Assembly: GCA_017417055.1 (NCBI GenBank)
Contig: JAFPZX010000015.1
Span: forward strand, 1 to 42,407
From: Anaerolineaceae bacterium
GTDB lineage: Bacteria > Chloroflexota > Anaerolineae > Anaerolineales > Anaerolineaceae
DNA: 42,407 nt
Reading direction: 5' to 3'
Shown: piece by piece, positions 220 through 42,406 of the stretch
Layout: the number at the start of each line of letters is the position of its first letter
Numbering within the stretch: position 1 is the stretch's first letter
Program-made: the position numbers and the translations under genes
Notes under the pieces: generated by a model
Database searches by the model: none
Told to the model about the DNA's origin: nothing
What the model saw: the letters and a program-made list of their open reading frames with translations, nothing else

Positions 220-243
220 TTTTTTCTCCTTTTTTTCTTAGCA

Positions 244-350
244 GGGGATAGGATATAGGATATAGGGGATAGTGATATCAGGCTTCAAAACTTCACTCCT
301 CATTCCTAACTCCTCACTCCTAACTAATTTCTTACTTCTTACTATTCTCT
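244..350. repeat. Heptad-phased repeat arrays between permease and binding-protein genes
   Basis: Two short arrays with a 7-base period. At 244-271 the units are GGGGATA, GGATATA, GGATATA, GGGGATA. At 294-342 they are CACTCCT, CATTCCT, AACTCCT, CACTCCT and AACTAAT, followed by TTCTTAC twice. They fill most of the 129-base gap inside the ABC operon and touch the stop codon of the upstream permease. Confidence 0.85.
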
Positions 351-1188
351 ATCCTTTCACCGCGCCGGCTACGACACCTTCGATGATGTATTTCTGCAGC
401 AGGATAAAGACGATGATGGAAGGCACGATCGCCAGCACCATGGAAGCCATGGCGTACTGCCACTGCGTATTGAACTGTCCCACAAAAGTATAGGCGGAAA
501 GCACCAGCGTTTTGGTCTTGGCACTGGAATTCACCATCAACAGCGGCAGCAGGAAGTCATTCCAGATCCACATCACATCCAAAACGATAACGGTAATGGT
601 GACGTTTTTCAGCAGCGGGAAAATCACGCTGAAGAAGGTCCGGATGGTGGAAGCACCGTCGATCTTGGCGCTCTCGTCGATTTCCTTCGGGATGGTATGC
701 AAAAAGTTGCAGTAGATGAAAGTCGCCATTGGAATGCCGAAGCCCCAGTACTGGATACCCAGTCCCCAGATAGATCCGGAAAGATGAAGCACGTTCATCA
801 CCTTCAGCAACGTGATCATGATGGTCTGGAAGGGAATCAGCATCGGGGTGATGATGAGCGTGTGGATAAAATTCGTATAGCGATTGGGGCGTCTTTCGAT
901 AATATAAGCCGTGAAGGATGAGAAGAAGACGATCCCTGCGATCCCTACAACCGTGATGATCACGTTGTTCAGGAACAGGCTCCAGTAATTCATCTTGTCC
1001 ATCACATAGGAATAATTTTTCCACTCGATCTTTGAAGGCAGCGCGATGACATCCATCACGACTTCGCGGAACGGCTTGACAGAATTCATGAACATCAAAA
1101 AGACGGGATAGATGTAAACCAGGCCGACAATGACGATGATCACTTCCAGGATCACCAGATATAAACGTCTTTTATCTGCTCTTGTCAT
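349..1188 (-). CDS. Carbohydrate ABC transporter permease (MalG/UgpE type)
   Basis: 279 residues with about six membrane helices. The EAA loop that docks with the ATPase is visible as ESAKIDGAS followed by FFSVIFPLL, at about residues 193-215. The N-terminal part (helix one followed by PFREVVMD) and the length are typical of the second permease of CUT1 sugar importers. Its ATG overlaps the stop of the upstream permease by four bases (ATGA), so the two are translationally coupled. It forms the membrane channel with that protein and takes sugar or oligosaccharide from the binding protein encoded just downstream. No ATPase gene is in the window; CUT1 systems often share one MsmX/UgpC-type ATPase encoded elsewhere. 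Confidence 0.92.
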   Translation of the reverse strand: MTRADKRRLYLVILEVIIVIVGLVYIYPVFLMFMNSVKPFREVVMDVIALPSKIEWKNYSYVMDKMNYWSLFLNNVIITVVGIAGIVFFSSFTAYIIERRPNRYTNFIHTLIITPMLIPFQTIMITLLKVMNVLHLSGSIWGLGIQYWGFGIPMATFIYCNFLHTIPKEIDESAKIDGASTIRTFFSVIFPLLKNVTITVIVLDVMWIWNDFLLPLLMVNSSAKTKTLVLSAYTFVGQFNTQWQYAMASMVLAIVPSIIVFILLQKYIIEGVVAGAVKG

Positions 1189-7544: not shown

Positions 7545-8177
7545 ATGTCACGAATTACCGAAATTGCGGAAGCTGCCCATAAGGATTTTGAAGCGCGCAC
7601 ACTGGCGCGTGATGCGGCTCTGACCCGCTCGCGGGCACTGATCCGTCACAGCGCCAACGCCATCCGCGCTATTCACCGCAGTGAATCGGAACTTGCCCAT
7701 GAGCATCTGACCGAAGGGCGGAAGATTGTCGACGCGCTCAAAGCTGACCTGGCAATCTATCCTGACCTGTATTATGCCGGGTATACACAGGATGCCATCA
7801 AGGAATTCTGCGAAGCAACACTCACCACCGCTTACATCGAAGGACGTGAGATCCCGACACCGGAAGAAATGGGAGTCGTCACCTCCACTTACCTGCGTGG
7901 AATGGCGGAAACTCCGGGTGAACTGCGCAGACGCTGCATGGATATCCTGCGCATGGGGTATTCCGATGAAGCCGAACGGCTCCTTGCCCAGATGGATGAA
8001 ATCTATTCCATCCTGGTCACCATGGACTATCCGGACGCTGTCACCAACGGACTGCGCCGGCAAACCGACCTGCTGCGCGGCATTGTGGAGCGGACCCGTG
8101 CGGATTTGACGCTCAGCCTGCGGGAAGATAAGCTCAAGGAATTGTTGGCAAAGGCAATTGAAGTTTACGGGAAATAA
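7545..8177 (+). CDS. Translin family protein
   Basis: 210 residues, all-helical. It carries the block typical of prokaryotic translin/TRAX-like proteins: YIEGREIPTPEEMGV at about 103-117, YLRGMAETPGELRRR about 121-136, and near the C-terminus GLRRQTDLLRGIVERTRADLT. The eukaryotic relatives assemble as octameric RNA- and ssDNA-binding shells (the C3PO RNase when TRAX is present); acidic residues are conserved here but I cannot assign the catalytic set with certainty. The ATG lies eight bases after ssb. That linkage suggests a role with single-stranded nucleic acid, which is inference. Older databases may label such proteins haloacid dehalogenase; nothing here supports that. Confidence 0.85.
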   Translation: MSRITEIAEAAHKDFEARTLARDAALTRSRALIRHSANAIRAIHRSESELAHEHLTEGRKIVDALKADLAIYPDLYYAGYTQDAIKEFCEATLTTAYIEGREIPTPEEMGVVTSTYLRGMAETPGELRRRCMDILRMGYSDEAERLLAQMDEIYSILVTMDYPDAVTNGLRRQTDLLRGIVERTRADLTLSLREDKLKELLAKAIEVYGK

Positions 8178-8581: not shown

Positions 8582-9120
8582 ACAGGGAATCTTTTTTACT
8601 TCTTGCATTAGGATTAGCTTTTCTGCTGTTTCTCCTGTGTTTATGGCTGAAAAGACTTAAAAGGGACCAGACAAAAATTGTCAGTCAGGATTTGACTTCA
8701 AAAAACAAATTATTATCTGTAAAAAAATCCGAGACTTATTACAGTAAAAAATACGGGATTGCGGGTAGACCAGATGAAGTAAAAGAGGAATGTGGAGAAT
8801 GGATTCCCTATGAATTCAAGAGCTCTGTTTATAAAGGCAGAGTCTATCCCGCACATATTATGCAGCTTGCAGCCTATTGCCTTTTGATAGAAGATACAAA
8901 AGGGTATAAACCTTCTTACGGGATTATCGAATATCAAAACCACAGAGAACCAATTTATTACACGAAGGATCTGCGTGCAAATCTGCTGACGCAAATAAAA
9001 AAAATCAGAAATGAAAATCCAGAGGAAAAAGACCTGCCTCCGGTATGTGAAGATACACGGAAATGCCGTCACTGCGGTTATGCCTGGTACTGCCATACAG
9101 AACAAAAACGGCTGTTCTGA
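8578..9120 (+). CDS. Cas4-like nuclease, C-terminal half with membrane segment
   Basis: 180 residues. I prefer the ATG at 8578, which overlaps the previous stop as ATGA; an upstream TTG- or GTG-type start near 8542 is possible. One membrane helix (about 6-25) is followed by the catalytic core: GRPD (Asp66), EFK (Glu79, Lys81), the QLAAYCLL helix (Gln96), and cluster cysteines Cys163, Cys166 and Cys172 with the C-x2-C-x5-C spacing seen in Cas4. An extra Cys157 precedes them. The fourth ligand and the motif I His are in the upstream gene. The two membrane helices would form a tight hairpin if the chains were joined. No cas genes or CRISPR array are near, so this is a solo Cas4-type protein; its role is unknown. 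Confidence 0.78.
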   Translation: MNRESFLLLALGLAFLLFLLCLWLKRLKRDQTKIVSQDLTSKNKLLSVKKSETYYSKKYGIAGRPDEVKEECGEWIPYEFKSSVYKGRVYPAHIMQLAAYCLLIEDTKGYKPSYGIIEYQNHREPIYYTKDLRANLLTQIKKIRNENPEEKDLPPVCEDTRKCRHCGYAWYCHTEQKRLF

Positions 9121-9126
9121 GGCTCA

Positions 9127-9158
9127 TTTCTTATTTCTTATTTCTTACTTCTTATTTT
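9127..9158. repeat. Heptad-phased repeat (TTTCTTA units)
   Basis: TTTCTTA three times, then CTTCTTA, in perfect 7-base phase at 9127-9154, starting seven bases after the split nuclease stop. Confidence 0.75.
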
Positions 9159-9200
9159 CAATTATAGTAAAATTCACCTGGTTATAATTCATGGAAATAC

Positions 9201-9263: not shown

Positions 9264-10541
9264 ATGACAGTCAGTGCTATTGTTGGTGTCAACTGGGGTG
9301 ATGAAGGCAAAGGCCGTATGGTCGACCTGATCGCTGAAGATTATGATGTTGTGATCCGCTATCAGGGCGGGAACAACGCGGGACATACGGTGGTGAATGA
9401 GTACGGAAAATTCGCCCTGCATCTGCTTCCTTCCGGTATCTTCCGACAGAACGTTGTGAATGTACTGGGAAACGGAACGGTCATCGACCCGCAGGCGCTG
9501 TGCGGTGAAATCAAAAACGTCACAGACAAAGGTCCGGTAATCGGCCCCGAAAATCTGAAAATCAGCGACCGTGCCATCATCGTCTTCCCCTATCACCGGG
9601 ATCTGGATGAACTGGAAGAAGCCCGTCTGAAGGACGCCAAATTCGGTTCCACCAAACGCGGCATCGCGCCGGTTTACAGCGACAAATATCAGAAAAAAGC
9701 CATCCAGATGGGTGAACTCCGCGACATGGCGAAACTCCGCAAGCGTTTGGAAGGTATCGTCGAATGGAAAAATCTGACGCTCAAAAACATCTACAACGCA
9801 AAGACCTACACCGTCGATGAACTGATGGCATGGCTGGAAGAATGGGGCACTCCGCTGCTCCCGCACATCTGCGACACCGGCATTCTGCTCCGCGAAGCGG
9901 AAAAGGCCGGCAAGAGCATCCTCTTCGAGGCACAGCTCGGCGCCCTGCGCGACATCGACTTCGGTATCTATCCGTTCACATCCTCTTCATCCCCAATCGC
10001 CGCTTATGCCCCGATCGGCTCCGGCGCACCCTGGCTGAAGATCGACTCCGTAATCGGTGTGGTGAAGGCGTACTCCACCTGTGTCGGAGAAGGACCCTTT
10101 ACCGCAGAATGGTTCGGTGAAGACGCGGAAAAACTGCGTGAAGCCGGCGCCGAATATGGTGCAGCTACCGGCCGTCCGCGCCGTGTTGGCCCGGTGGATA
10201 TCGTAGCCACCCGCTACGGTGCCCGCATGCAGGCAGCCACCTGCATCGCCCTGACCAAGCTCGACATCCTTTCCTACATGGATGAGATCCCGGTCTGCAC
10301 ACAGTACGAACTCAACGGCGAACTGACCGATGAATTTCCGTTCCCGGCTAACCTTGCCGAGGCCAAGCCCGTCATCAAGACTGTCCCAGGTTGGAAGACC
10401 GATATCAGCGGTGTCCGAAAATATGAAGACCTGCCGCAGGCCTGCCGTGATTACATCGAATATCTCGAAAAAGAGATCGGCTGCCCGATCACTTATGTTT
10501 CCGTTGGTGCGGAACGCGACGCCATCATTGTGAGAGACTGA
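9264..10541 (+). CDS. purA: Adenylosuccinate synthetase
   Basis: 425 residues, the usual size. It joins IMP and aspartate using GTP to make adenylosuccinate, the first committed step to AMP. The P-loop-like GDEGKGR with the catalytic Asp is at residues 12-18, GGNNAGHT with the catalytic His near 34-41, and the C-terminal TKLDIL guanine-recognition motif is present. GGAGG at 9254-9258 sets the ATG at 9264. Its stop overlaps the purB start by one base (TGATG), so both AMP-branch enzymes are made together, with hpt further down the same strand. Confidence 0.98.
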   Translation: MTVSAIVGVNWGDEGKGRMVDLIAEDYDVVIRYQGGNNAGHTVVNEYGKFALHLLPSGIFRQNVVNVLGNGTVIDPQALCGEIKNVTDKGPVIGPENLKISDRAIIVFPYHRDLDELEEARLKDAKFGSTKRGIAPVYSDKYQKKAIQMGELRDMAKLRKRLEGIVEWKNLTLKNIYNAKTYTVDELMAWLEEWGTPLLPHICDTGILLREAEKAGKSILFEAQLGALRDIDFGIYPFTSSSSPIAAYAPIGSGAPWLKIDSVIGVVKAYSTCVGEGPFTAEWFGEDAEKLREAGAEYGAATGRPRRVGPVDIVATRYGARMQAATCIALTKLDILSYMDEIPVCTQYELNGELTDEFPFPANLAEAKPVIKTVPGWKTDISGVRKYEDLPQACRDYIEYLEKEIGCPITYVSVGAERDAIIVRD

Positions 10542-11950
10542 TGCACGACATCTACGAAACCCCATTGGGTACCCGCTATGCATCCAAACAGATGCAGCAG
10601 CTCTTTTCGGCTGATACACGCTATCAGACCTGGCGGAAACTCTGGGTAGAGCTTGCCCGGGCTCAATCAGAGCTCGGGCTGCCCGTAACCCCGGAACAGG
10701 TCGCTGAACTGGAAGCTCATATCACGGACATTGACTACGAAGCCGAACGCGAGAAAGAAAAAGAAATCCGCCATGATGTCATGGCGCATATTTATGCCTA
10801 TGGACTGGTCTGTCCCAACGCCAAAGGCATCATCCATCTTGGCGCGACCAGCTGCTATGTCACGGACAATGCCGATTTGATCATCTACCGGGACGGACTA
10901 AAATCTATACGCAATTCAATACTGACAGTCATCTCAAACCTGGCTGCCTTCGCTGAGAAATATAAGTCACTGCCTACACTTGGCTACACGCATCTGCAGC
11001 CGGCTCAGCTGGTTACGGTTGGGAAACGTGCCTGTTTATGGATCCAGGATCTTTACATGGACCTTGCCGAGATCGACGACACCATCCACGCTATCAAGTT
11101 CCTCGGCTGCCGCGGCACCACCGGCACCGAAGCCAGTTTCCTGAGCCTCTTCAACGGGGACAGCGGCAAGATCGACGAGATGAACCGCCGAATCGCCTCC
11201 GCATTTGGATTTACGGAACTCTTTGACGTGTGCGGTCAGACCTATCCGCGCAAGCTGGACAGCCGCATCCTCAACGCGTTAAGCTCCGTAGCCCAGAGCG
11301 CTTACCGCTTTGCCAACGATATCCGCCTGCTGCAGCACATGCGTCAGGTGGAGGAACCCTTTGAAAAAGAACAGGTCGGCTCCTCAGCCATGGCTTACAA
11401 GCGCAACCCTATGCGTTCCGAACGGATCTGTTCCCTGGCCCGTTATGTGATGGCGGACGCGCTGAACGCTCCGATGACTGCCTCTGTCCAGTGGTTTGAA
11501 CGAACGCTGGACGATTCCGCCAACCGCCGCATCTCCCTGCCGGAAGGATTCCTGGCTGTGGATGGCATCCTGCGCCTGATGGCTAACGTCTCCGATGGAC
11601 TGCACGTCAATGAAAAGATCATTGAACGCGAAGTTCGTGAATATCTGCCTTTTATCGCCACTGAAAACCTGTTAATGAGTGCTGTCAAAGCCGGCGGCGA
11701 CCGTCAGCAAATGCACAAGGTCATCCGCCGCCATTCCATGGACGCTACTGCCCGCATGAAAGAAGGCCTGCCCGCTCACCTGCTGGAGGAGCTGGGAAAT
11801 GACCCTGAATTTGTCCTGAGCCATGACCAAATCGCTGAAGCCCTGGACCCCAAAGACTACATCGGCCGCTGCAAGGAACAGGTAGATTTTTTCCTTTCAA
11901 AACTGCCGAATGCTGAATCAATATCCGAAACAGATGAGATAAATTTGTAG
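10541..11950 (+). CDS. purB: Adenylosuccinate lyase
   Basis: 469 residues of the fumarase/aspartase superfamily. It splits adenylosuccinate to AMP plus fumarate, and SAICAR to AICAR. Visible are the substrate-binding IIHLGATSCYVTDNAD (near 103-118), GYTHLQPAQ (near 150), and the signature loop GSSAMAYKRNP with the catalytic Ser near 286-296. It is translationally coupled to purA. Its stop codon TAG lies inside the first unit of a heptad repeat (AGGTTTT AGGTTAT) that forms the left arm of the inverted repeat around the next gene. Confidence 0.97.
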   Translation: MHDIYETPLGTRYASKQMQQLFSADTRYQTWRKLWVELARAQSELGLPVTPEQVAELEAHITDIDYEAEREKEKEIRHDVMAHIYAYGLVCPNAKGIIHLGATSCYVTDNADLIIYRDGLKSIRNSILTVISNLAAFAEKYKSLPTLGYTHLQPAQLVTVGKRACLWIQDLYMDLAEIDDTIHAIKFLGCRGTTGTEASFLSLFNGDSGKIDEMNRRIASAFGFTELFDVCGQTYPRKLDSRILNALSSVAQSAYRFANDIRLLQHMRQVEEPFEKEQVGSSAMAYKRNPMRSERICSLARYVMADALNAPMTASVQWFERTLDDSANRRISLPEGFLAVDGILRLMANVSDGLHVNEKIIEREVREYLPFIATENLLMSAVKAGGDRQQMHKVIRRHSMDATARMKEGLPAHLLEELGNDPEFVLSHDQIAEALDPKDYIGRCKEQVDFFLSKLPNAESISETDEINL

Positions 11951-11963
11951 GTTTTAGGTTATA
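11949..11963 (+). repeat. Left arm of 15-base inverted repeat around the four-helix-bundle gene
   Basis: AGGTTTTAGGTTATA, two heptad units, is the exact reverse complement of 12412-12426. Together the arms bracket the inserted gene between purB and hpt. Confidence 0.85.
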
Positions 11964-11977
11964 AAGGCTTACGATAG

Positions 11978-12364
11978 ATGGATATTATAAATAATTATAA
12001 AGATTTGAAAGTATGGCAAAAATCCATGGATTTAGCCTTTATGGTATATAGGCTGGTTAAAATTTTGCCAAGGGAAGAATTATATTCTTTGTCCGATCAA
12101 ATGAGGAGAGCAGTTGTTTCAATCCCCTCGAACATTGCAGAAGGCTGTCAACGTGGATCTATTAAAGAATATATACATTTTCTATATATTGCGAAAGGCT
12201 CATTGGCTGAACTTGAAACACAATTATTATTATGCAAAGGGTTTGGTTATATAAACAGGGAGCAAACTGATCCTATTGAGGCCCAATGTATGGAAGTTAC
12301 CAAAATGCTAAATATGTTGATAAATAATTTGCAACAAAAAATAAATAAAGGAGATACAAAATAG
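11978..12364 (+). CDS. Four-helix-bundle protein (23S rRNA intervening-sequence protein family)
   Basis: 128 residues. The protein has the family landmarks: YKDLKVWQKSMDLAFMVY at the start, LSDQMRRAVVSIPSNIAEG with the invariant SIPSNIAEG turn, and LGSLAELETQLLL-like helix three (here KGSLAELETQLLLCKGFGYI). Members occur inside 23S rRNA intervening sequences and as free-standing genes, often next to repeats; the fold is shared with the Avd proteins of diversity-generating retroelements. Biochemical role is not settled. The gene is much richer in A+T than purB and hpt on either side, its start has no good ribosome binding site, and a perfect 15-base inverted repeat flanks it, which together suggest insertion into a purA-purB-hpt cluster. 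Confidence 0.88.
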   Translation: MDIINNYKDLKVWQKSMDLAFMVYRLVKILPREELYSLSDQMRRAVVSIPSNIAEGCQRGSIKEYIHFLYIAKGSLAELETQLLLCKGFGYINREQTDPIEAQCMEVTKMLNMLINNLQQKINKGDTK

Positions 12365-12427
12365 GTTATAAGTACACCAGGCAATTCGGTCATACCCTAA
12401 AACCTATAACCTATAACCTAAAACCTG
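12362..12427. repeat. Heptad repeats and right arm of the inverted repeat
   Basis: TAGGTTATAA begins at the stop of the previous gene; AAACCTA, TAACCTA, TAACCTA, AAACCTG run in exact 7-base phase at 12400-12427. Bases 12412-12426 complement 11949-11963. The array ends five bases before the hpt start and leaves no room for a normal ribosome binding site. Confidence 0.85.
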
Positions 12428-12432
12428 AAATT

Positions 12433-12984
12433 ATGAAAATCACGAACGAACAAAACGATATTGAACGTGTGCTTTACACGGAAAAGGCCATTGCGGCCCG
12501 GGTGGAAGCGCTGGGTGCCGAAATTACTGAGGATTTTAAGGGTAAAAATCCGATCGTCGTCTGCATTCTGAAAGGCGCCAGCTTCTTTTATACGGACCTG
12601 TGCCGGTCGATCAAGACCGACATTTATATGGACTTCATCTCCGTTTCCAGTTACGGGGCTGATTCCAAGAGTTCCGGCGTCGTACGCCTGGTAAAGGATA
12701 TCAACACCAACATTACCGGCCGGGATGTGATCCTGGTGGAAGACATCATTGACTCCGGTCTGACGCTGAATTATCTGAAGGATTTCTTTGGTGCCCGCCG
12801 TCCGGCATCCTTCAAGACGGTTTGTCTTCTGGAAAAAGAAGGCCGCAAGAACACAAATTTTCAGGCGGACTACCTCGGCTTCCGCATTCCCAATGAGTTC
12901 GTCGTCGGCTACGGCCTCGACTATGCCGACCACTACCGCAACCTGCCCTACATCGGCGTGCTCAAAAAAGAGTGCTACGAGTAA
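12433..12984 (+). CDS. hpt: Hypoxanthine phosphoribosyltransferase
   Basis: 183 residues, normal for the family. It salvages hypoxanthine (and usually guanine) with PRPP to IMP (GMP). The PRPP-binding loop VILVEDIIDSGLTL is at about 99-112, the flexible-loop SSYGADSKSSG near 73-83, and the base-binding FVVGYGLDYADHYRNLPYIGVL at the C-terminus. It lies downstream of purA and purB, and feeds IMP directly to PurA. No ribosome binding site precedes the ATG; the upstream 33 bases are heptad repeat, so expression may rely on the altered leader. A terminator follows at 12999. Confidence 0.96.
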   Translation: MKITNEQNDIERVLYTEKAIAARVEALGAEITEDFKGKNPIVVCILKGASFFYTDLCRSIKTDIYMDFISVSSYGADSKSSGVVRLVKDINTNITGRDVILVEDIIDSGLTLNYLKDFFGARRPASFKTVCLLEKEGRKNTNFQADYLGFRIPNEFVVGYGLDYADHYRNLPYIGVLKKECYE

Positions 12985-15162: not shown

Positions 15163-15643
15163 GGTGACAAAATACAAGAACCGAGTGACGCCGATCGACA
15201 TCACTGCTGCCAATAAGACAAAGATGGCTTGGGATTTCCTCGCCATGCTCGACACCGGCCACTGGCAGGAGCACAAGGGTGACGAGATCAACGTCCTCAA
15301 GTCCAGTTTCATGCCGGGCAAAGAGCCCTATGAAATCCTGATGGAGCCGGAACTGCTGCAGCAGATGTTTTATCGTGAATTGCGGGGCTGCCGCATCGAA
15401 CCCACCGGGAAGCAGTCCAATGTCCGCTGGGGCGTCAAAGACGGAACCCGTAACCATACCACCGGACGCATTCTTCATGACGATCTGGTGATGTCCGCCG
15501 CCCTTGCTGTTTTTGAGACGAGCACGCTGCCGATCCGCAATCATTTCGAAGGCCTGACAGAGCATTATGAGAATCTGCAAAAATTTACGAACGCAGAATG
15601 CGCCGGGAAATGGGACCAAAGTGGAGATAAAAATAGGCAATAG
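15163..15643 (+). pseudogene. Broken C-terminal fragment of a phage terminase large subunit
   Basis: From 15163 the sequence matches the reverse complement of the partial gene at 41852-42406 (nearly 90 percent by eye). It encodes the nuclease-domain C-terminus, including QMFYRELRGCRIEP, VRWGVKDGTRN and the HDDLVMSAAL motif with acidic metal ligands. Upstream of 15163 the similarity stops abruptly, so the ATPase domain and the first nuclease Asp are missing. Near the end an A-run has five A where the other copy has six; this shifts the frame and replaces the normal tail (YERRMRREMGPYWR) with an unrelated one. The open frame from 15062 is therefore a chance join. Heptad repeats start just after it. 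Confidence 0.82.
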
Positions 15644-15868
15644 GCATTAGGCAATAGGCAATAGGATATAGGGGATAGGAGGGTTGGAAGGAGTCTGCAG
15701 CTTCGCTGCAGTGAGGAGTGAGGAATTAGGAGTGAGAAGTTAGGAGTAAGGAGTGACTGGTGTTTGGTTGTTAGTGTCTGACAACTGACCACTGGACACT
15801 GGCTGCTGACTGCTGAACACTGACTGCCAGTTTCCAGTCCCAAATCCCCAATCCTCAGGCCCTAAGCA
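15632..15868. repeat. Composite heptad-repeat array (four unit families)
   Basis: Consecutive 7-base units: AATAGGC, ATTAGGC, AATAGGC, AATAGGA, TATAGGG, GATAGGA; then a CTGCAGC-TTC-GCTGCAG hairpin; then GGAGTGA, GGAATTA, GGAGTGA, GAAGTTA, GGAGTAA, GGAGTGA; then CTGACAA, CTGACCA, CTGGACA, CTGGCTG, CTGACTG, CTGAACA, CTGACTG; and last CCAAATC, CCCAATC. The phase is strict within each family while bases drift. Confidence 0.92.
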
Positions 15869-15920: not shown

Positions 15921-16832
15921 ATGGAAAAAATATTTCAAGACAATCGATATAAAACGCTGCTGGCAGTAATCTGTTCGGTGGGATGGTCTCTGGCTTATCC
16001 GTTCATCAAATTGGGGTATCAGACTTTTCAAATCGCGTCAGATGATCTGGGCGGGAAGATTTTGTTCGGCGGTTTACGCTTTTTTCTGGCCGGCATATTT
16101 GTCATGCTTTTCTGCGCTTTCCGCAAAATCGGGTTGGAGATCAAGAACAGGAATGACCTGTGGTGGTTGTTCCTGTTGGCGCTGGTGAACACCGCTCTTC
16201 ATTACACTTTTGCCTACATCGGACTGGGTTACAATTCCAGTGCTCGATCCACTATTCTGGATTCACTGGGCGGATTCATTCTGATCTTCCTCTCGGCTAT
16301 GATTTTTCCCGACGATACCATGACCATTCGGAAAATTATCGGATGCTTGTTAGGCCTGGCAGGGATCATTATGATCAATGTTCATCCGGGTGAGGATCTG
16401 TTCACAGATGTTACCTTTCGGGGTGACGGGATGATTTTGCTGAACGCGGCTTTTTCTGCCCTGGGCGGCATTATCACCCGGATCGTTTCCAAAAAGATGA
16501 ACATCATGATGGCAACCGGACAGAGCATGATGATTGGCGGCGCTATGATGATAACCACCGCACTGGTTATCGGACCATCCCGTCCGTGGGTCATCACGAT
16601 ACAGGGACTGCTGATCCTCCTTGTTCTGATCCTCATTTCCGCGGTCTGTTTTGGGATCTATAATGAACTGCTCGCCTGGCATCCTATCAGCGAGATTGCC
16701 ATATACAATGCGCTGATTCCCGTTCTGGGCGTCATCTTCGCCGCGCTGATCCTGAATGAGGAACTGAAATGGCAGTATTTTCTCTCTGTCCTGATGGTGG
16801 CCGCAGGAATATATCTGGTGAATCGGAAATAG
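15921..16832 (+). CDS. EamA/DMT-family transporter
   Basis: 303 residues from the ATG at 15921, chosen over an open frame from 15888 because AAGGAA at 15911-15916 precedes it. Ten hydrophobic helices form two EamA repeats: the first ends near ILDSLGGFILIFLSAMIFPDD, the second near YNALIPVLGVIFAALILNEELKW, the latter a typical EamA end. Members export or exchange amino acids, metabolites or nucleotide sugars; the substrate is not visible. Its stop TAG overlaps the first bases of an inverted repeat that separates it from the convergent rnhB. Confidence 0.92.
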   Translation: MEKIFQDNRYKTLLAVICSVGWSLAYPFIKLGYQTFQIASDDLGGKILFGGLRFFLAGIFVMLFCAFRKIGLEIKNRNDLWWLFLLALVNTALHYTFAYIGLGYNSSARSTILDSLGGFILIFLSAMIFPDDTMTIRKIIGCLLGLAGIIMINVHPGEDLFTDVTFRGDGMILLNAAFSALGGIITRIVSKKMNIMMATGQSMMIGGAMMITTALVIGPSRPWVITIQGLLILLVLILISAVCFGIYNELLAWHPISEIAIYNALIPVLGVIFAALILNEELKWQYFLSVLMVAAGIYLVNRK

Positions 16833-17017
16833 GTTTCAGGTGTCAGGCTTTAGGTTTTGAGGAATAGGATAGGACTTGGAGTTTGGGACTGAAAGAGTGA
16901 GGAGTTAGGTGTGGCTGGTGACTTGAAAGTAAGGGGTGAGGAGTTAGGAATGAGGAGTGACTAAGGCTGGACACTGACCACTGGCATCTGGTCACTGACA
17001 TCTGACACCTGAAACCT
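16831..17017. repeat. Heptad array closed by a 16-base perfect inverted repeat
   Basis: AGGTTTCAGGTGTCAG (16831-16846) is the exact reverse complement of 17002-17017. Between them run degenerate 7-base units: GAGTGAG, GAGTTAG, GGGTGAG, GAGTTAG, GAATGAG, GAGTGAC, then CTGGACA, CTGACCA, CTGGCAT, CTGGTCA, CTGACAT. The element fills the whole space between the stop codons of the EamA transporter and rnhB and could work as a two-way terminator. Confidence 0.9.
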
Positions 17018-17019
17018 GA

Positions 17020-17748
17020 TTAAAACAGTGTCAATTTGTCGGCAAGGGGACGGAAGCTGCGGCGGTGGATTGGGCAGGGACCATACTGCGCGAGCATTTC
17101 CTGATGGAGTTTGGTCCCATATCCTTTGTGCAGATCAAAGCGATATTGTGGGTAAAGCTCCGCGGCAGTGATGCGCATAAAGCGGTCCCGGGTTACCTTG
17201 GCGAGGACTGAAGCACAGGCAATGGAGAGCGAAAGCATATCACCGTGCTTGATGCCGGTTTGCGGAATGGTCACGTCGTGGAGACGTACATAATCGATCA
17301 GCAGATGGACCGGCTGCGGCTTCAGAGCTTCGATTGCCCGCTTCATGGCATTTTTCGTGGCATTCAGGATGCCGATGCGGTCAATTTCCTCCGCGTCTGC
17401 TTCACCCACAGCCCAGGTTTGTGCTTCTGCTTTGACGACATCAAACATGGCTTCCCGTTCCACCGGCGTCATCAGTTTGCTGTCACGGACGCCTTCCAAC
17501 CGGTTCAGAATGTCCGGGTCCGCAGGCAGAATTACCGCTCCCGCTGTAACCGGTCCGGCCCAGGAACCCCGCCCGGCTTCATCGATCCCTGCAATCAAGA
17601 GGAATCCCTGATGCCATAGGGCAGATTCATAGTCTAAGGTGGGAGAAGGCTTATGACATTCAGAGTTAGGAGCTGGAAGGAAGGAGTGAGGGGTGATGAG
17701 TGAGGAATGAGGAACAACAGATAAATGGTCAGAAATTTTTTGTGTCAT
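17020..17748 (-). CDS. rnhB: Ribonuclease HII with repeat-derived N-terminus
   Basis: 242 residues. It removes RNA from RNA-DNA hybrids and single ribonucleotides from DNA. The metal site is visible: GIDEAGRG (Asp56, Glu57), VRDSKLM, LLIDYVRL, and DLHKGYGTKLH near the end. The family core starts at about residue 36 (PTLDYESALWHQGFLLIAGID). There is no ATG, GTG or TTG in frame between 17748 and that core, so the ATG at 17748 is the only plausible start. The resulting extra 30 residues (including PHSSLITPHSFLP) are translated from a heptad repeat at about 17655-17715. The gene is convergent with the EamA gene and 33 bases downstream of the glycosyltransferase. Confidence 0.93.
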   Translation of the reverse strand: MTQKISDHLSVVPHSSLITPHSFLPAPNSECHKPSPTLDYESALWHQGFLLIAGIDEAGRGSWAGPVTAGAVILPADPDILNRLEGVRDSKLMTPVEREAMFDVVKAEAQTWAVGEADAEEIDRIGILNATKNAMKRAIEALKPQPVHLLIDYVRLHDVTIPQTGIKHGDMLSLSIACASVLAKVTRDRFMRITAAELYPQYRFDLHKGYGTKLHQEMLAQYGPCPIHRRSFRPLADKLTLF

Positions 17749-17790
17749 GAGTTCACTCTCTGATTTCCGATTTCTGATTTCTTATTTGTA
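17650..17790. repeat. Heptad repeats overlapping the rnhB 5' end
   Basis: On the plus strand: GAGTTAG, GAGCTGG, AAGGAAG, GAGTGAG, GGGTGAT, GAGTGAG, GAATGAG inside the rnhB frame, and TGATTTC, CGATTTC, TGATTTC, TTATTTG at about 17759-17787 in front of it. Confidence 0.85.
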
Positions 17791-18510
17791 CAGCCCTTTG
17801 CGGTAATTTTTGCGGATCTGGAGCAATTCGCGGAACATTTTGAGCGAGTCCTGGATCACATTGATCTTGCTGTTGCCGTCATAATACCATTGTACCGGAA
17901 CCTCGACGATCTTATAACCGAATTGTTTGGCGATGAACAAAACTTCGGCGTCAAAAGCCCAGCCGTTGATGCGCTGAACGCTGAAGAGTCTCTGTGCTGC
18001 TTCCGCAGAAAAGCTTTTGAAGCCGCACTGTGTATCATGAATTTGGGGAAGTCCGAGGAGGATACGAACGATCAGGTTGAACACACGGCCGGTGAAATGA
18101 CGGGTAACCGGTTCGTTGTAACGGACAGCTCCTTTTACCTCTCTGGAGCCGATTGCCACATCATAGTCCGAAAGGATCGGCGGGATAAAGTTTCGAACTT
18201 CGCTGATGGGCATAGAAAAGTCTACATCGGCAAACATGCGGTATCGTCCATGCGCTTCCAGCATGCCTCGGCGAACAGCATTTCCCTTCCCGGGGGTTTG
18301 TTCCTTCAGGACAGTCAGCCAGGGATATTTGGCGGCATATTCCTGCCCCAGTTCGTAGGTGCGGTCTTTGCTGCCGTTTTCAACCAGGATCACTTCAATG
18401 GGATCCGGATAGGAGGCAACAAAACTTTCGACCTTTTCCATACATTCGGGAAGGCGCTTTTCTTCGTTGTATGCCGGTAAAATCAGCGAAAATAAAATGC
18501 TCTTTTCCAT
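17782..18510 (-). CDS. Family 2 glycosyltransferase (polyprenyl-phosphate sugar synthase type)
   Basis: 242 residues from the ATG at 18510; an in-frame ATG at 18528 would add six residues, and neither has a clear ribosome binding site. The GT-A fold shows LPAYNEEKRLPE at the start, the metal-binding ADVDFS near 96-101, and CGFKSFSAEAAQRLF plus WAFDAEVLF, the pattern of dolichyl-phosphate beta-glucosyltransferase (ALG5) relatives. It likely moves a sugar from a nucleotide donor to a lipid phosphate carrier, which GT-C enzymes like those at 24289-29524 could use. No C-terminal membrane helices are present. Confidence 0.88.
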   Translation of the reverse strand: MEKSILFSLILPAYNEEKRLPECMEKVESFVASYPDPIEVILVENGSKDRTYELGQEYAAKYPWLTVLKEQTPGKGNAVRRGMLEAHGRYRMFADVDFSMPISEVRNFIPPILSDYDVAIGSREVKGAVRYNEPVTRHFTGRVFNLIVRILLGLPQIHDTQCGFKSFSAEAAQRLFSVQRINGWAFDAEVLFIAKQFGYKIVEVPVQWYYDGNSKINVIQDSLKMFRELLQIRKNYRKGLYK

Positions 18511-38265: not shown

Positions 38266-38281
38266 AAAAATTGATGCCAAG

Positions 38282-38350
38282 TTTCAGGTGTCAGGTGTCA
38301 GTTTGAGGTCCAAAATTCTGATCCCCGGAACCTGATACCTGACACCTTGA
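38282..38350. repeat. Heptad-type inverted repeat between SPFH gene and sucC
   Basis: TTTCAGGTGTCAGGTGTCAG at the left, and CTGATACCTGACACCT at the right (38332-38347), can pair over 15 of 16 positions. The words are the same as those at 16831 and 17002, so this is the same family. Confidence 0.85.
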
Positions 38351-41583: not shown

Positions 41584-41611
41584 TTAAATTTTATCATAAA
41601 TATTATAAATA

Positions 41612-41850
41612 GCGGCCAGTGGTCAGTGGCCAGTAATCAGTGGCCAGTAATCAGTGGCCACTGGTCAGTGATCAGTGTGCAGAGTTCAGAGTGCAGTTAA
41701 GCAATTGTTTTTATACGCAGCAGCCAGTCACCAGCCACCAGTCACTTCATACTCCTTACTCCTTACTTCTTACTCCTTACTTTTCCAGACCCAAATCCCC
41801 AGCCCCATACCATTTCCGATTTCCGATTTCTGATTTCTGATTTTCCTGCT
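41612..41850. repeat. Large composite heptad-repeat array
   Basis: Strict 7-base phase throughout: CAGTGGT, CAGTGGC, CAGTAAT, CAGTGGC, CAGTAAT, CAGTGGC, CACTGGT, CAGTGAT, CAGTGTG, CAGAGTT; then CCAGTCA, CCAGCCA, CCAGTCA; CTCCTTA, CTCCTTA, CTTCTTA, CTCCTTA; CCCAAAT, CCCCAGC; and GATTTCC, GATTTCT, GATTTCT. It fills the gap between pyrR and the terminase gene. Confidence 0.93.
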
Positions 41851-41851
41851 T

Positions 41852-42406
41852 CTACCTCCAATACGGCCCCATTTCCCGGCGCATTCTCCGTTCGTAAATT
41901 TTTTGCAGATTCTCATAATGTTCCGTCAGGTCCTCGATATGATTGCGGATCGGCAGCGTGCTCGTCTCAAACACCGCCAGCGCGGCGGACATCACCAGAT
42001 CGTCATGCAGAATACGACCGGTGGCATGGTCGCGGGTTCCGTCCTTCACGCCCCAGCGGACGTTGGACTGGTTCCCGGTGGGTTCGATGCGGCAGCCCCG
42101 CAGTTCGCGATAAAACATCTGCTGCAGCAGCTCCGGTTCTTTCAGAATCTCATAGGGTTCTTTGCCCGGTTTGAAACTGGATTTCAGGACGTTGATCTCG
42201 TCTCCCTTGTGCTCCTGCCAGCGGCCGGTGTCCACCATGGCGAGGAAGTCCCAGGCCATCTTCGTCTTGTTTGCCGCGGTGATGTCTATCGGCGTCACGC
42301 GGTTCTTGTATTTTGTCACCAGTATGTCGCTCAGCATAGCGCCCAGACCGGAGTGATCGATGATTATATGCTTCTGTCCCCACTGCTCAATATCCTGACA
42401 GATTCG
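41852..42406 (-). CDS. Phage terminase large subunit, C-terminal nuclease part (partial)
   Basis: The frame is open to the right edge (42406), so the first listed ATG (42337) is only internal. About 184 residues are visible: HIIIDHSGLGAMLSDIL with the first catalytic Asp of the RNase H-like nuclease, VTPIDITAANKTKMAWDFLA, then QMFYRELRGCRIEP, VRWGVKDGTRDHATG and HDDLVMSAAL with the last acidic pair. Large terminases package viral DNA; this is the cutting domain. No other phage gene is visible inside the window. A diverged, truncated copy is at 15163. The stop abuts a heptad array. Confidence 0.85.
   Translation of the reverse strand, partial: RICQDIEQWGQKHIIIDHSGLGAMLSDILVTKYKNRVTPIDITAANKTKMAWDFLAMVDTGRWQEHKGDEINVLKSSFKPGKEPYEILKEPELLQQMFYRELRGCRIEPTGNQSNVRWGVKDGTRDHATGRILHDDLVMSAALAVFETSTLPIRNHIEDLTEHYENLQKIYERRMRREMGPYWR

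Follow-up and report, generated by a model that had tools for sequence, protein, structure and literature searches.

Heptad repeat arrays of an Anaerolineaceae genome as probable ends and gene-less copies of a small intergenic element with a four-helix-bundle gene

Introduction

A 42,407-nt contig of an Anaerolineaceae bacterium (JAFPZX010000015.1, assembly GCA_017417055.1), hereafter the window, carries arrays of degenerate seven-base units between its genes, and the question that it raises is what these arrays are and what maintains them. A first-pass annotation had likened them to the short tandemly repeated repetitive sequences (STRRs) of heterocystous cyanobacteria, and had suggested that the conserved period reflects slippage, copying, or a protein that reads seven bases.

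Results

Period and location of the heptad arrays

When lags 1-30 were compared along the window, 22 or more matches in 28 were reached solely by lags 7, 14, 21 and 28. At 19/28 or above, eight lag-7 segments were recorded (238-361, 9116-9168, 12385-12439, 15624-15862, 16926-17022, 17675-17794, 38275-38309 and 41611-41854), and Tandem Repeats Finder returned period-7 rows at most of the array places named in the first-pass annotation, although its site near 11949 turned out to be a two-unit arm, below threshold and readable by eye. Several unit families are indeed stacked side by side in one array, as at 15624..15862. The gene-less arrays of the window, none of them assigned a strand, are the following.

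238..361: G-rich arm GGATAGGATATAGG, then the C-rich families TCACTCC and TTTCTTAC
9116..9168: ATTTCTT array, found at the same place in congener G156 and absent from congener G162
15624..15862: stacked array of AATAGGC and GGAGTGA, then CTGACCA and CCAATCC, in the order G-rich to C-rich
16831..17022: nested array, its outer arms TTTCAGGTGTCAGG and CCTGACACCTGAAA being inverted copies by eye (inverted score 16, below 17.1, the 95th percentile of mispaired arrays), with other families inside
17675..17794: AGGAGTG, then TTTCTGA
38275..38309: short TCAGGTG array, recorded both as a lag-7 segment and by Tandem Repeats Finder
41611..41854: stacked array of CAGTGGC, CAGAGTG, CCAGTCA, TACTCCT and ATTTCCG

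The G-rich arm of the first array is common to four species (G156, G162, G163 and the genome of the window), and its C-rich side differs between species. A heptad array at 17682-17715 falls in the 5′ end of an ORF at 17020-17748 on the minus strand, the true start of which is therefore probably downstream.

The genome to which the window belongs is a 4.41-Mb draft of 200 contigs, 85% complete with 5.5% contamination, of which 829 kb on 11 contigs were sampled. Autocorrelation at lag 7 against shuffled sequence, a check named beforehand, gave 93 arrays at a threshold of 20/28, or 11.2 per 100 kb, versus 0.0 per 100 kb in a block-shuffled version of the same 829 kb; lags 5, 8, 10, 11 and 13 gave 0-0.4 per 100 kb. 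Finer segmentation yielded 187 segments in 87 clusters and 34 heptad families, with arrays on 11/11 contigs sampled. Such a draft might be suspected of assembly or binning artefacts, an explanation that we find hardly credible: the arrays are not the fault of a single contig, because congeners have them too, and the same architecture is present in single-contig genomes (e.g. loci L077 and L080), in named isolates and in complete plasmids.

The arrays are intergenic and specific to period 7 in this genome. Segments lying mostly within ORFs number 20/187, though ORFs of at least 120 aa cover 86% of the sample, in line with the early claim that the arrays occur almost solely between genes. That they often begin at a stop codon was also borne out: where an array edge faces a stop codon, the two are within 10 bp of each other in 40/68 cases, versus 5/72 for edges that face a start codon. 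Any array at all is held by 70 of the 383 gaps of at least 40 bp.

Among the gene-less clusters, 11/87 contain an inverted repeat whose score passes the 95th percentile for mispaired controls, and 42/87 consist of a single segment. Because just these 11 clusters beat the mispaired control, the idea that every gene-less array is a clean hairpin was dropped. Pairs of same-family segments have inverted:direct ratios of 9:0 at 150-300 bp, but 4:4 at 60-150 bp and 2:4 at 20-60 bp. The multi-segment clusters run from G-rich to C-rich in 26/45 cases and in the reverse order in 1/45, with no sign change in 18/45; in multi-family arrays this order holds even where the families on the two sides differ.

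A four-helix-bundle gene between inverted heptad arms

One site in the window holds a gene between its heptads.

11942..11963, plus strand: upstream (5′) heptad arm, TAGGTTT-TAGGTTA, an inverted match to the downstream arm
11978..12364, plus strand: four-helix-bundle (4HB) gene, PF05635 (23S_rRNA_IVP)/TIGR02436, 128 aa (Pfam E 2e-41, TIGR02436 E 6e-40)
12392..12431, minus strand: downstream (3′) heptad arm, the reverse complement of TAGGTTA/TAGGTTT units

The first TAG of the upstream arm is the stop codon of the gene at 10541-11950, which we take to be purB, and the downstream arm ends just short of a phosphoribosyltransferase gene (“hpt”) at 12433. The element lies between these two protein genes and not in a 23S rRNA gene; its sole gene matches just 4HB families, and no recombinase was recognised within it. 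Elsewhere in the window, an ORF at 7545-8177 (plus strand) with a marginal Translin match (PF01997, 26.3 bits versus a cut-off of 25.9) adjoins an SSB gene and precedes a Cas4-like nuclease gene.

Five PF05635 genes, including that of the window, were found in the 85%-complete genome, and by inspection all five have inverted arms of the same family on both sides (TAGGTTA, CAGTAGT-like, AAATCGG, CAGAGTG and GGAGTGA, respectively). The inverted score of the window pair is 16, just under 16.55, the 95th percentile of mispaired arms; the full set of scores is 16, 20, 24, 17 and 28, with 4/5 above that percentile. In the lag test at a threshold of 18, both flanks register for 2/5 of these genes and the downstream flank alone for 3/5, because the upstream arms of the latter three are short or degenerate. 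Throughout the genus, 20/26 elements exceed the 95th percentile of mispaired arms and 6/26 do not, the set comprising 26 of 28 genes after removal of two without a readable frame. Thus, the gene-flanking arrays form inverted arms and are not free-standing microsatellites, and an interpretation as simple tandem repeats is also at odds with the inverted arms at several gene-less sites.

Our main reading, to which we assign a probability of roughly 0.6, is that the arrays belong to a small intergenic element that bears a 4HB gene and is related to the intervening sequences (IVS) of 23S rRNA, some of them as its ends and others as copies that lack the gene or have decayed.

A profile of eight such 4HB proteins (alignment A1) matches two relatives of solved structure, 2rld and 2gsc; both entries contain five chains, and 2gsc is reported as a pentamer. 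The window protein also weakly matches Avd (NF033474, E 2e-7; PF22296), a four-helix-bundle relative that is the accessory protein of diversity-generating retroelements (DGRs), and homology between PF05635 and Avd is noted in PMC10053308. Together with one partial RVT_1 in the genome of the window, these matches bring up the alternative that a reverse transcriptase, helped by an Avd-like 4HB protein, copies the arrays as in DGRs. RVT_1 is present in 36/61 genomes searched and was not found in 25/61, including 21/54 carriers of PF05635 (E <= 0.001), and because of these 21 carriers we have set this alternative aside as very improbable. Those in which no RVT_1 was found include near-complete genomes that have 4-22 4HB genes, e.g. 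G028 (22 copies, 99% complete), G018 (11), G120 (10) and G046 (4), as well as the single-contig genomes G074 and G106. Unlike a DGR, the arrays do not need RVT_1. The early suggestion of copying or of a protein that reads the seven-base period nevertheless pointed in the right direction, as a 4HB protein is encoded between the arms; what it does not need is a resident reverse transcriptase.

Inverted arms and a common inward core across bacteria

The association of heptads with the 4HB gene extends beyond this genus. The pan-bacterial set consists of the best 80 of at least 495 confirmed PF05635 relatives from genome contigs, and these best 80 belong to Bacillota, Bacteroidota, Spirochaetota, Proteobacteria, Cyanobacteriota, Patescibacteria and others. 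For these best 80 of at least 495 loci, lag 7 scores at 20/28 in 72/151 flanks within 400 bp of the gene versus 26/788 blocks at distances above 1.2 kb, and of the remaining non-harmonic lags in the near flanks none exceeds lag 8 with 9/151 (at most 6%); with 300-bp flanks, lag 7 registers in 71/152 for 4HB genes versus 26/431 for other ORFs of these loci. At 19 or more within 300 bp, both flanks register in 26/72 loci, one in 24/72 and none in 22/72 (best 80 of at least 495), though some loci have units of 8 or 9 bases instead. When the two flanks of a locus were matched with each other, 42/75 loci of the same best 80 lay above the 99th percentile for mispaired controls in the inverted sense, as opposed to 11/75 in the direct sense. 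Omitted from these counts were 9/160 flanks shorter than 400 bp, 8/160 shorter than 300 bp and, for arm pairing, 5/80 loci. At locus L095, the reading frame of the 4HB gene stays open through its upstream heptads and would yield a repeat of a seven-residue peptide, which may give rise to spurious N-terminal extensions when such genes are annotated.

Addition of 29 same-phylum and 26 genus loci to the pan-bacterial ones (best 80 of at least 495) gave a pooled set of 135, from which two loci without a frame were dropped. A readable arm is present in 111 of the remaining 133 (22/133 were dropped for lack of one), and in 68 of the 73 loci with both arms readable the arms are more alike inverted than direct (counts that include the best 80 of at least 495). 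When the 111 arms were aligned by rotation and read inward, they revealed a common core, Y-A-G-K-N-N-N, with Y at 83%, A at 84%, G at 88% and G/T at 80%. The information in this core is 3.82 bits, versus at most 2.85 in 20 column-permuted sets, and in the inward sense AG exceeds CT in 93 of the 111 arms, CT exceeds AG in 10, and 8 are ties. The N positions vary between elements and are largely common to the units and to both arms of one element. The strictness of the seven-base period, asserted in the first-pass annotation, does not extend to the wider family, in which some elements have units of 8 or 9 bases (L101, L104, L117, L130, L152 and L159) and 7 is not fixed.

To keep the window's own relatives apart, three loci of its phylum and one Thermomicrobiales locus were removed from the 64 pan-bacterial arms. 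The remaining 60 give 3.99 bits versus at most 3.05 in permuted sets, with 49 arms of AG excess, 5 of CT excess and 6 ties, and the conclusions on the core, on the profile and on the Mantel test are unchanged. Applied to the 187 dispersed segments of the window's own genome, the 60-arm profile scores a median of 3.16 versus 1.77 for permuted segments; the gene-less arrays are therefore tied to the gene-bearing element. Heptad similarity is correlated with protein similarity (Mantel r 0.16, reached by 0/2000 permutations, n=111; r 0.22, 0/2000, n=60), a weak effect that may owe something to common descent of whole elements.

Orthologous sites and turnover of the arms

The gap between purB and hpt was compared in five congeners, three of which have the gene and two a gene-less array. 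The gene-bearing arms are TAGGTTA in the window's genome, TAGGCAA in G156 and TAGGTTA in G162, and the gene-less arrays belong to other families, AAATGAG in G155 and TCAGGGN in G163. At a second site, C149a, the gene is present in 1/5 and gene-less heptad arrays in three: TAGTTGG in G156, AAATCAG in G155, which is close to the family of the window's genome, and a GTGAAAGG-like family in G163. In G162 an unrelated repeat takes the place of the heptads at C149a; there (locus L323) the gap is filled by a GC-rich palindromic repeat, about 150 bp long and present twice. A third site, next to ruvC, has the gene in the window's genome, G162 and G163, a gene-less hairpin array in G156 and a one-arm remnant in G155. 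In the gene-free congeners G160, G154 and G158 the extracts from this site are free of heptads and 69-73 bases long, anchor sequence making up about 50 bases of each; a fourth locus (L310) lacks one anchor. Visible decay of the gene, as expected of a selfish element, includes an internal stop in L032 and the shortened ruvC-site copy of G163.

Of the seven gene-less orthologous arrays, four (purB of G155 and G163, C149a of G156, ruvC of G156) have an inverted repeat that was reached by 0/300 shuffles; those at C149a in G155 and G163 were reached by 4 and 8 of 300 shuffles, and the ruvC remnant of G155 has none. In 10/12 comparisons an arm is more similar to its partner in the same element than to the orthologous arm, and both arms therefore change together. 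Since a site can be occupied anew by other heptad families, either a hotspot or pure turnover is possible. The protein tree of the 26 genus members does not tell whether site-mates are sisters. Comparison of occupied with heptad-free sites revealed no target duplication, the congener flanks being about 65-90% identical and too diverged to define a junction, nor did the congeners compared include two close relatives of which just one has a given copy.

An alternative is that the arms act as RNA, either as a stem cut by RNase III as in the 23S IVS or as a translational-regulator site, with selection on the hairpin as RNA. Some gene-less arrays come close to a perfect hairpin (G156 at C149a, -44 kcal/mol), the Coxiella IVS is reported in PMC4990558 to be cut out by RNase III, and both neighbours are co-directional for 50/64 4HB genes versus 80/153 other ORFs (best 80 of at least 495 loci). 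Gene-less arrays, however, show no bias to co-directional gaps (48/70 versus 253/383 of all gaps), and mismatches between arms on the sense strand are G-U-compatible in 109 cases versus 149 of A-C type (26 versus 32 when counted per element), the test having used 89/135 elements after 46/135 were dropped for an arm score below 17 or short flanks. With the G-U bias negative on these 89/135 elements we rejected a selected RNA stem, and consider this explanation quite improbable. The RNA duplex energy of 260-base flanks separated 7/26 elements from mispaired ones at 5%, which makes that test too blunt.

Gene presence and array load

Within the genus, PF05635 (E <= 0.001) is present in 5-8 copies in 5/14 genomes and in 0-1 copies in 9/14. 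At threshold, four congeners with the gene contained 25 arrays in 392 kb, versus 0 in 371 kb from four congeners without it; at laxer thresholds the gene-free congeners give 2 and 5 arrays, the level of other lags. The first 100 kb of G162, which has eight copies of the gene, contained no arrays, and a further 60 kb contained four, one of its stretches having been picked for a known hit, so that this is not a blind sample. Outside the genus, four arrays were found in 180 kb from five genomes with 4-22 copies versus two in 166 kb from five genomes with none, and the proposal that array load is proportional to gene copies therefore fails there.

In the phylum, PF05635 occurs in 48/151 genomes, that of the window included, and it occurs in 17/26 relatives, one of which is also in the 151-genome set; it was absent from 14/14 control genomes searched. 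Carriage by phages or plasmids was considered and rejected: phages gave no match to the PF05635 gene at E <= 1e-5, and the 32 matching plasmid records are nearly all cyanobacterial.

The principal competitor of the main reading holds that the arrays are ordinary heptanucleotide microsatellites produced by polymerase slippage, in which a separate 4HB element prefers to reside or is tolerated. One survey found heptamers to be more frequent than any other long simple repeats in the majority of genomes, and a slippage of 7 nt has been put forward (both as cited in PMC4679880); moreover, units are homogenised within an arm, and most gene-less clusters are without a clean inverted partner. Slippage, however, yields neither inverted arms, nor an inward Y-A-G-K core across phyla, nor a matched change of two arms, and the gene-free congeners sampled yielded no arrays at threshold. 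We therefore regard it as unlikely, though less so than selection on an RNA stem, and continue with the arrays as the ends and remains of a 4HB-gene-bearing element.

Discussion

Relationship to known repeats and elements

Like the STRRs of heterocystous cyanobacteria, the arrays described here consist of tandem, degenerate 7-base units in many intergenic copies. STRRs are described as tandem repeats that stand free, whereas in our main reading the arrays here belong with S23/4HB genes. The early comparison with cyanobacterial heptad repeats gains from the plasmid records: eight of the 32 matching ones were examined, two being near-identical loci of one strain, and their S23/4HB genes mostly have inward-facing heptad arms, such as TAGGGAG, TAGGGTG, CAGGGAA and CAGGTGA. 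The inverted scores of the eight loci are 32, 29, 29, 39, 10, 32, 26 and 15, and the direct scores 6, 8, 8, 69, 9, 9, 7 and 10, so that one locus is without a matched pair (10), one is weak (15), and one has a strong direct repeat besides the inverted one. On plasmids of Pseudanabaena galeata and Anabaena sp. 90 (L339 and L342), the 4HB gene lies between cas6 and cas4 with different heptads, which suggests repeated occupation of one junction; in Anabaena sp. 90, a type I-D cas1d follows the cas6-4HB-cas4 arrangement.

In REPIN-RAYT and MITE/IS systems, too, a few gene-bearing copies share one genome with many gene-less relatives, some of them palindromic. Those systems depend on a catalytic transposase, whereas no recombinase was recognised between the arms here. 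The terminal inverted repeats of transposons and MITEs have their counterpart in the gene-bearing elements, and only partly in the gene-less ones (11/87 clusters, 4/7 orthologous sites).

With the 23S rRNA IVS the elements have in common the PF05635 protein family and inverted ends around one small ORF, the pair in the window scoring 16 against a 95th percentile of 16.55; they differ from it in sitting between protein genes. Insertion inside 23S rRNA was rejected on a weak negative, in that none of four short conserved 23S motifs, searched as exact matches, occurred in 134 PF05635 loci scanned. In the Coxiella IVS, which RNase III reportedly excises, two to three GACAGAT heptads and a degenerate one are found right before S23p, according to PMC4990558; read as CAGATGA, this heptad is a Y-A-G unit, and its variable repeats before S23p are the nearest published hint at the association described here.

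Two further families of intergenic heptads may be compared. The TAACTGA repeats of Beggiatoaceae, Cyanobacteria and Bacteroidetes (PMC4679880) fit Y-A-G-K-N-N-N when their reverse complement is read as CAGTTAT; they lie near start codons and have been interpreted as possible translational sites, whereas the arrays here lie at stop codons. In the main text of that paper, S23, four helix, 23S and transposase are never mentioned. The genome-wide intergenic GGGAATC/GGGGAYT repeats of Xanthomonas and Nostoc, discussed as G-quadruplex formers in PMC4692102, differ in that GGGAATC is without the AG core of our arms; the S23p structure 2gsc comes from Xanthomonas campestris, a member of a GGGAATC-repeat genus. 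No published link between S23/IVP genes and heptad arrays was found in the literature searched, preprints and most subscription journals being outside its reach. The parts, an IVS-like gene and STRR-like arms, are known, and their union appears to be new.

A possible mechanism and its meaning

A full element would measure about 0.5 kb and consist of an arm of tandem 7-base units, the S23/IVP 4HB gene and a reverse-complement arm, with units that tend to Y-A-G-K-N-N-N when read inward from either end. The 4HB protein, whose solved relatives have five chains each, would bind the heptads of the arm DNA as a ring, joining the two ends. The element would be mobile, with host enzymes performing the chemistry, because its sole gene encodes no recognisable recombinase; a transposase acting from elsewhere in the genome may also be involved. 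Gene-less hairpins could have moved with the protein supplied in trans, or could be deletion copies, and the many one-sided, mixed-family arrays would be worn or nested remains. For the renewal of arms as matched pairs, our preferred guess is copying from arm to arm across a DNA hairpin.

In a wider formulation, which we put forward tentatively and at less than even odds, these elements would form a pan-bacterial class of enzyme-less mobile elements. A non-catalytic pentameric 4HB protein would recognise inward-facing YAGKNNN arrays at both ends and recruit host replication or repair to copy the element and insert it at gene ends; both arms would be rewritten together with a new heptad, giving each copy a private repeat family, and cyanobacterial STRRs, TAACTGA repeats and the 23S rRNA IVS would all be products of this one class.

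Such a system would connect two old puzzles of bacterial genomes. Heptad repeats were noticed decades ago and still have no accepted origin; S23/IVP proteins have solved structures and no known function. If both belong to a single system, they account for each other: the protein would gain a likely target in the arms, and the repeats would gain a maker. The intergenic regions of many bacteria would then have a mobile component directly at gene ends, and an old question would become testable with one protein and one short DNA.
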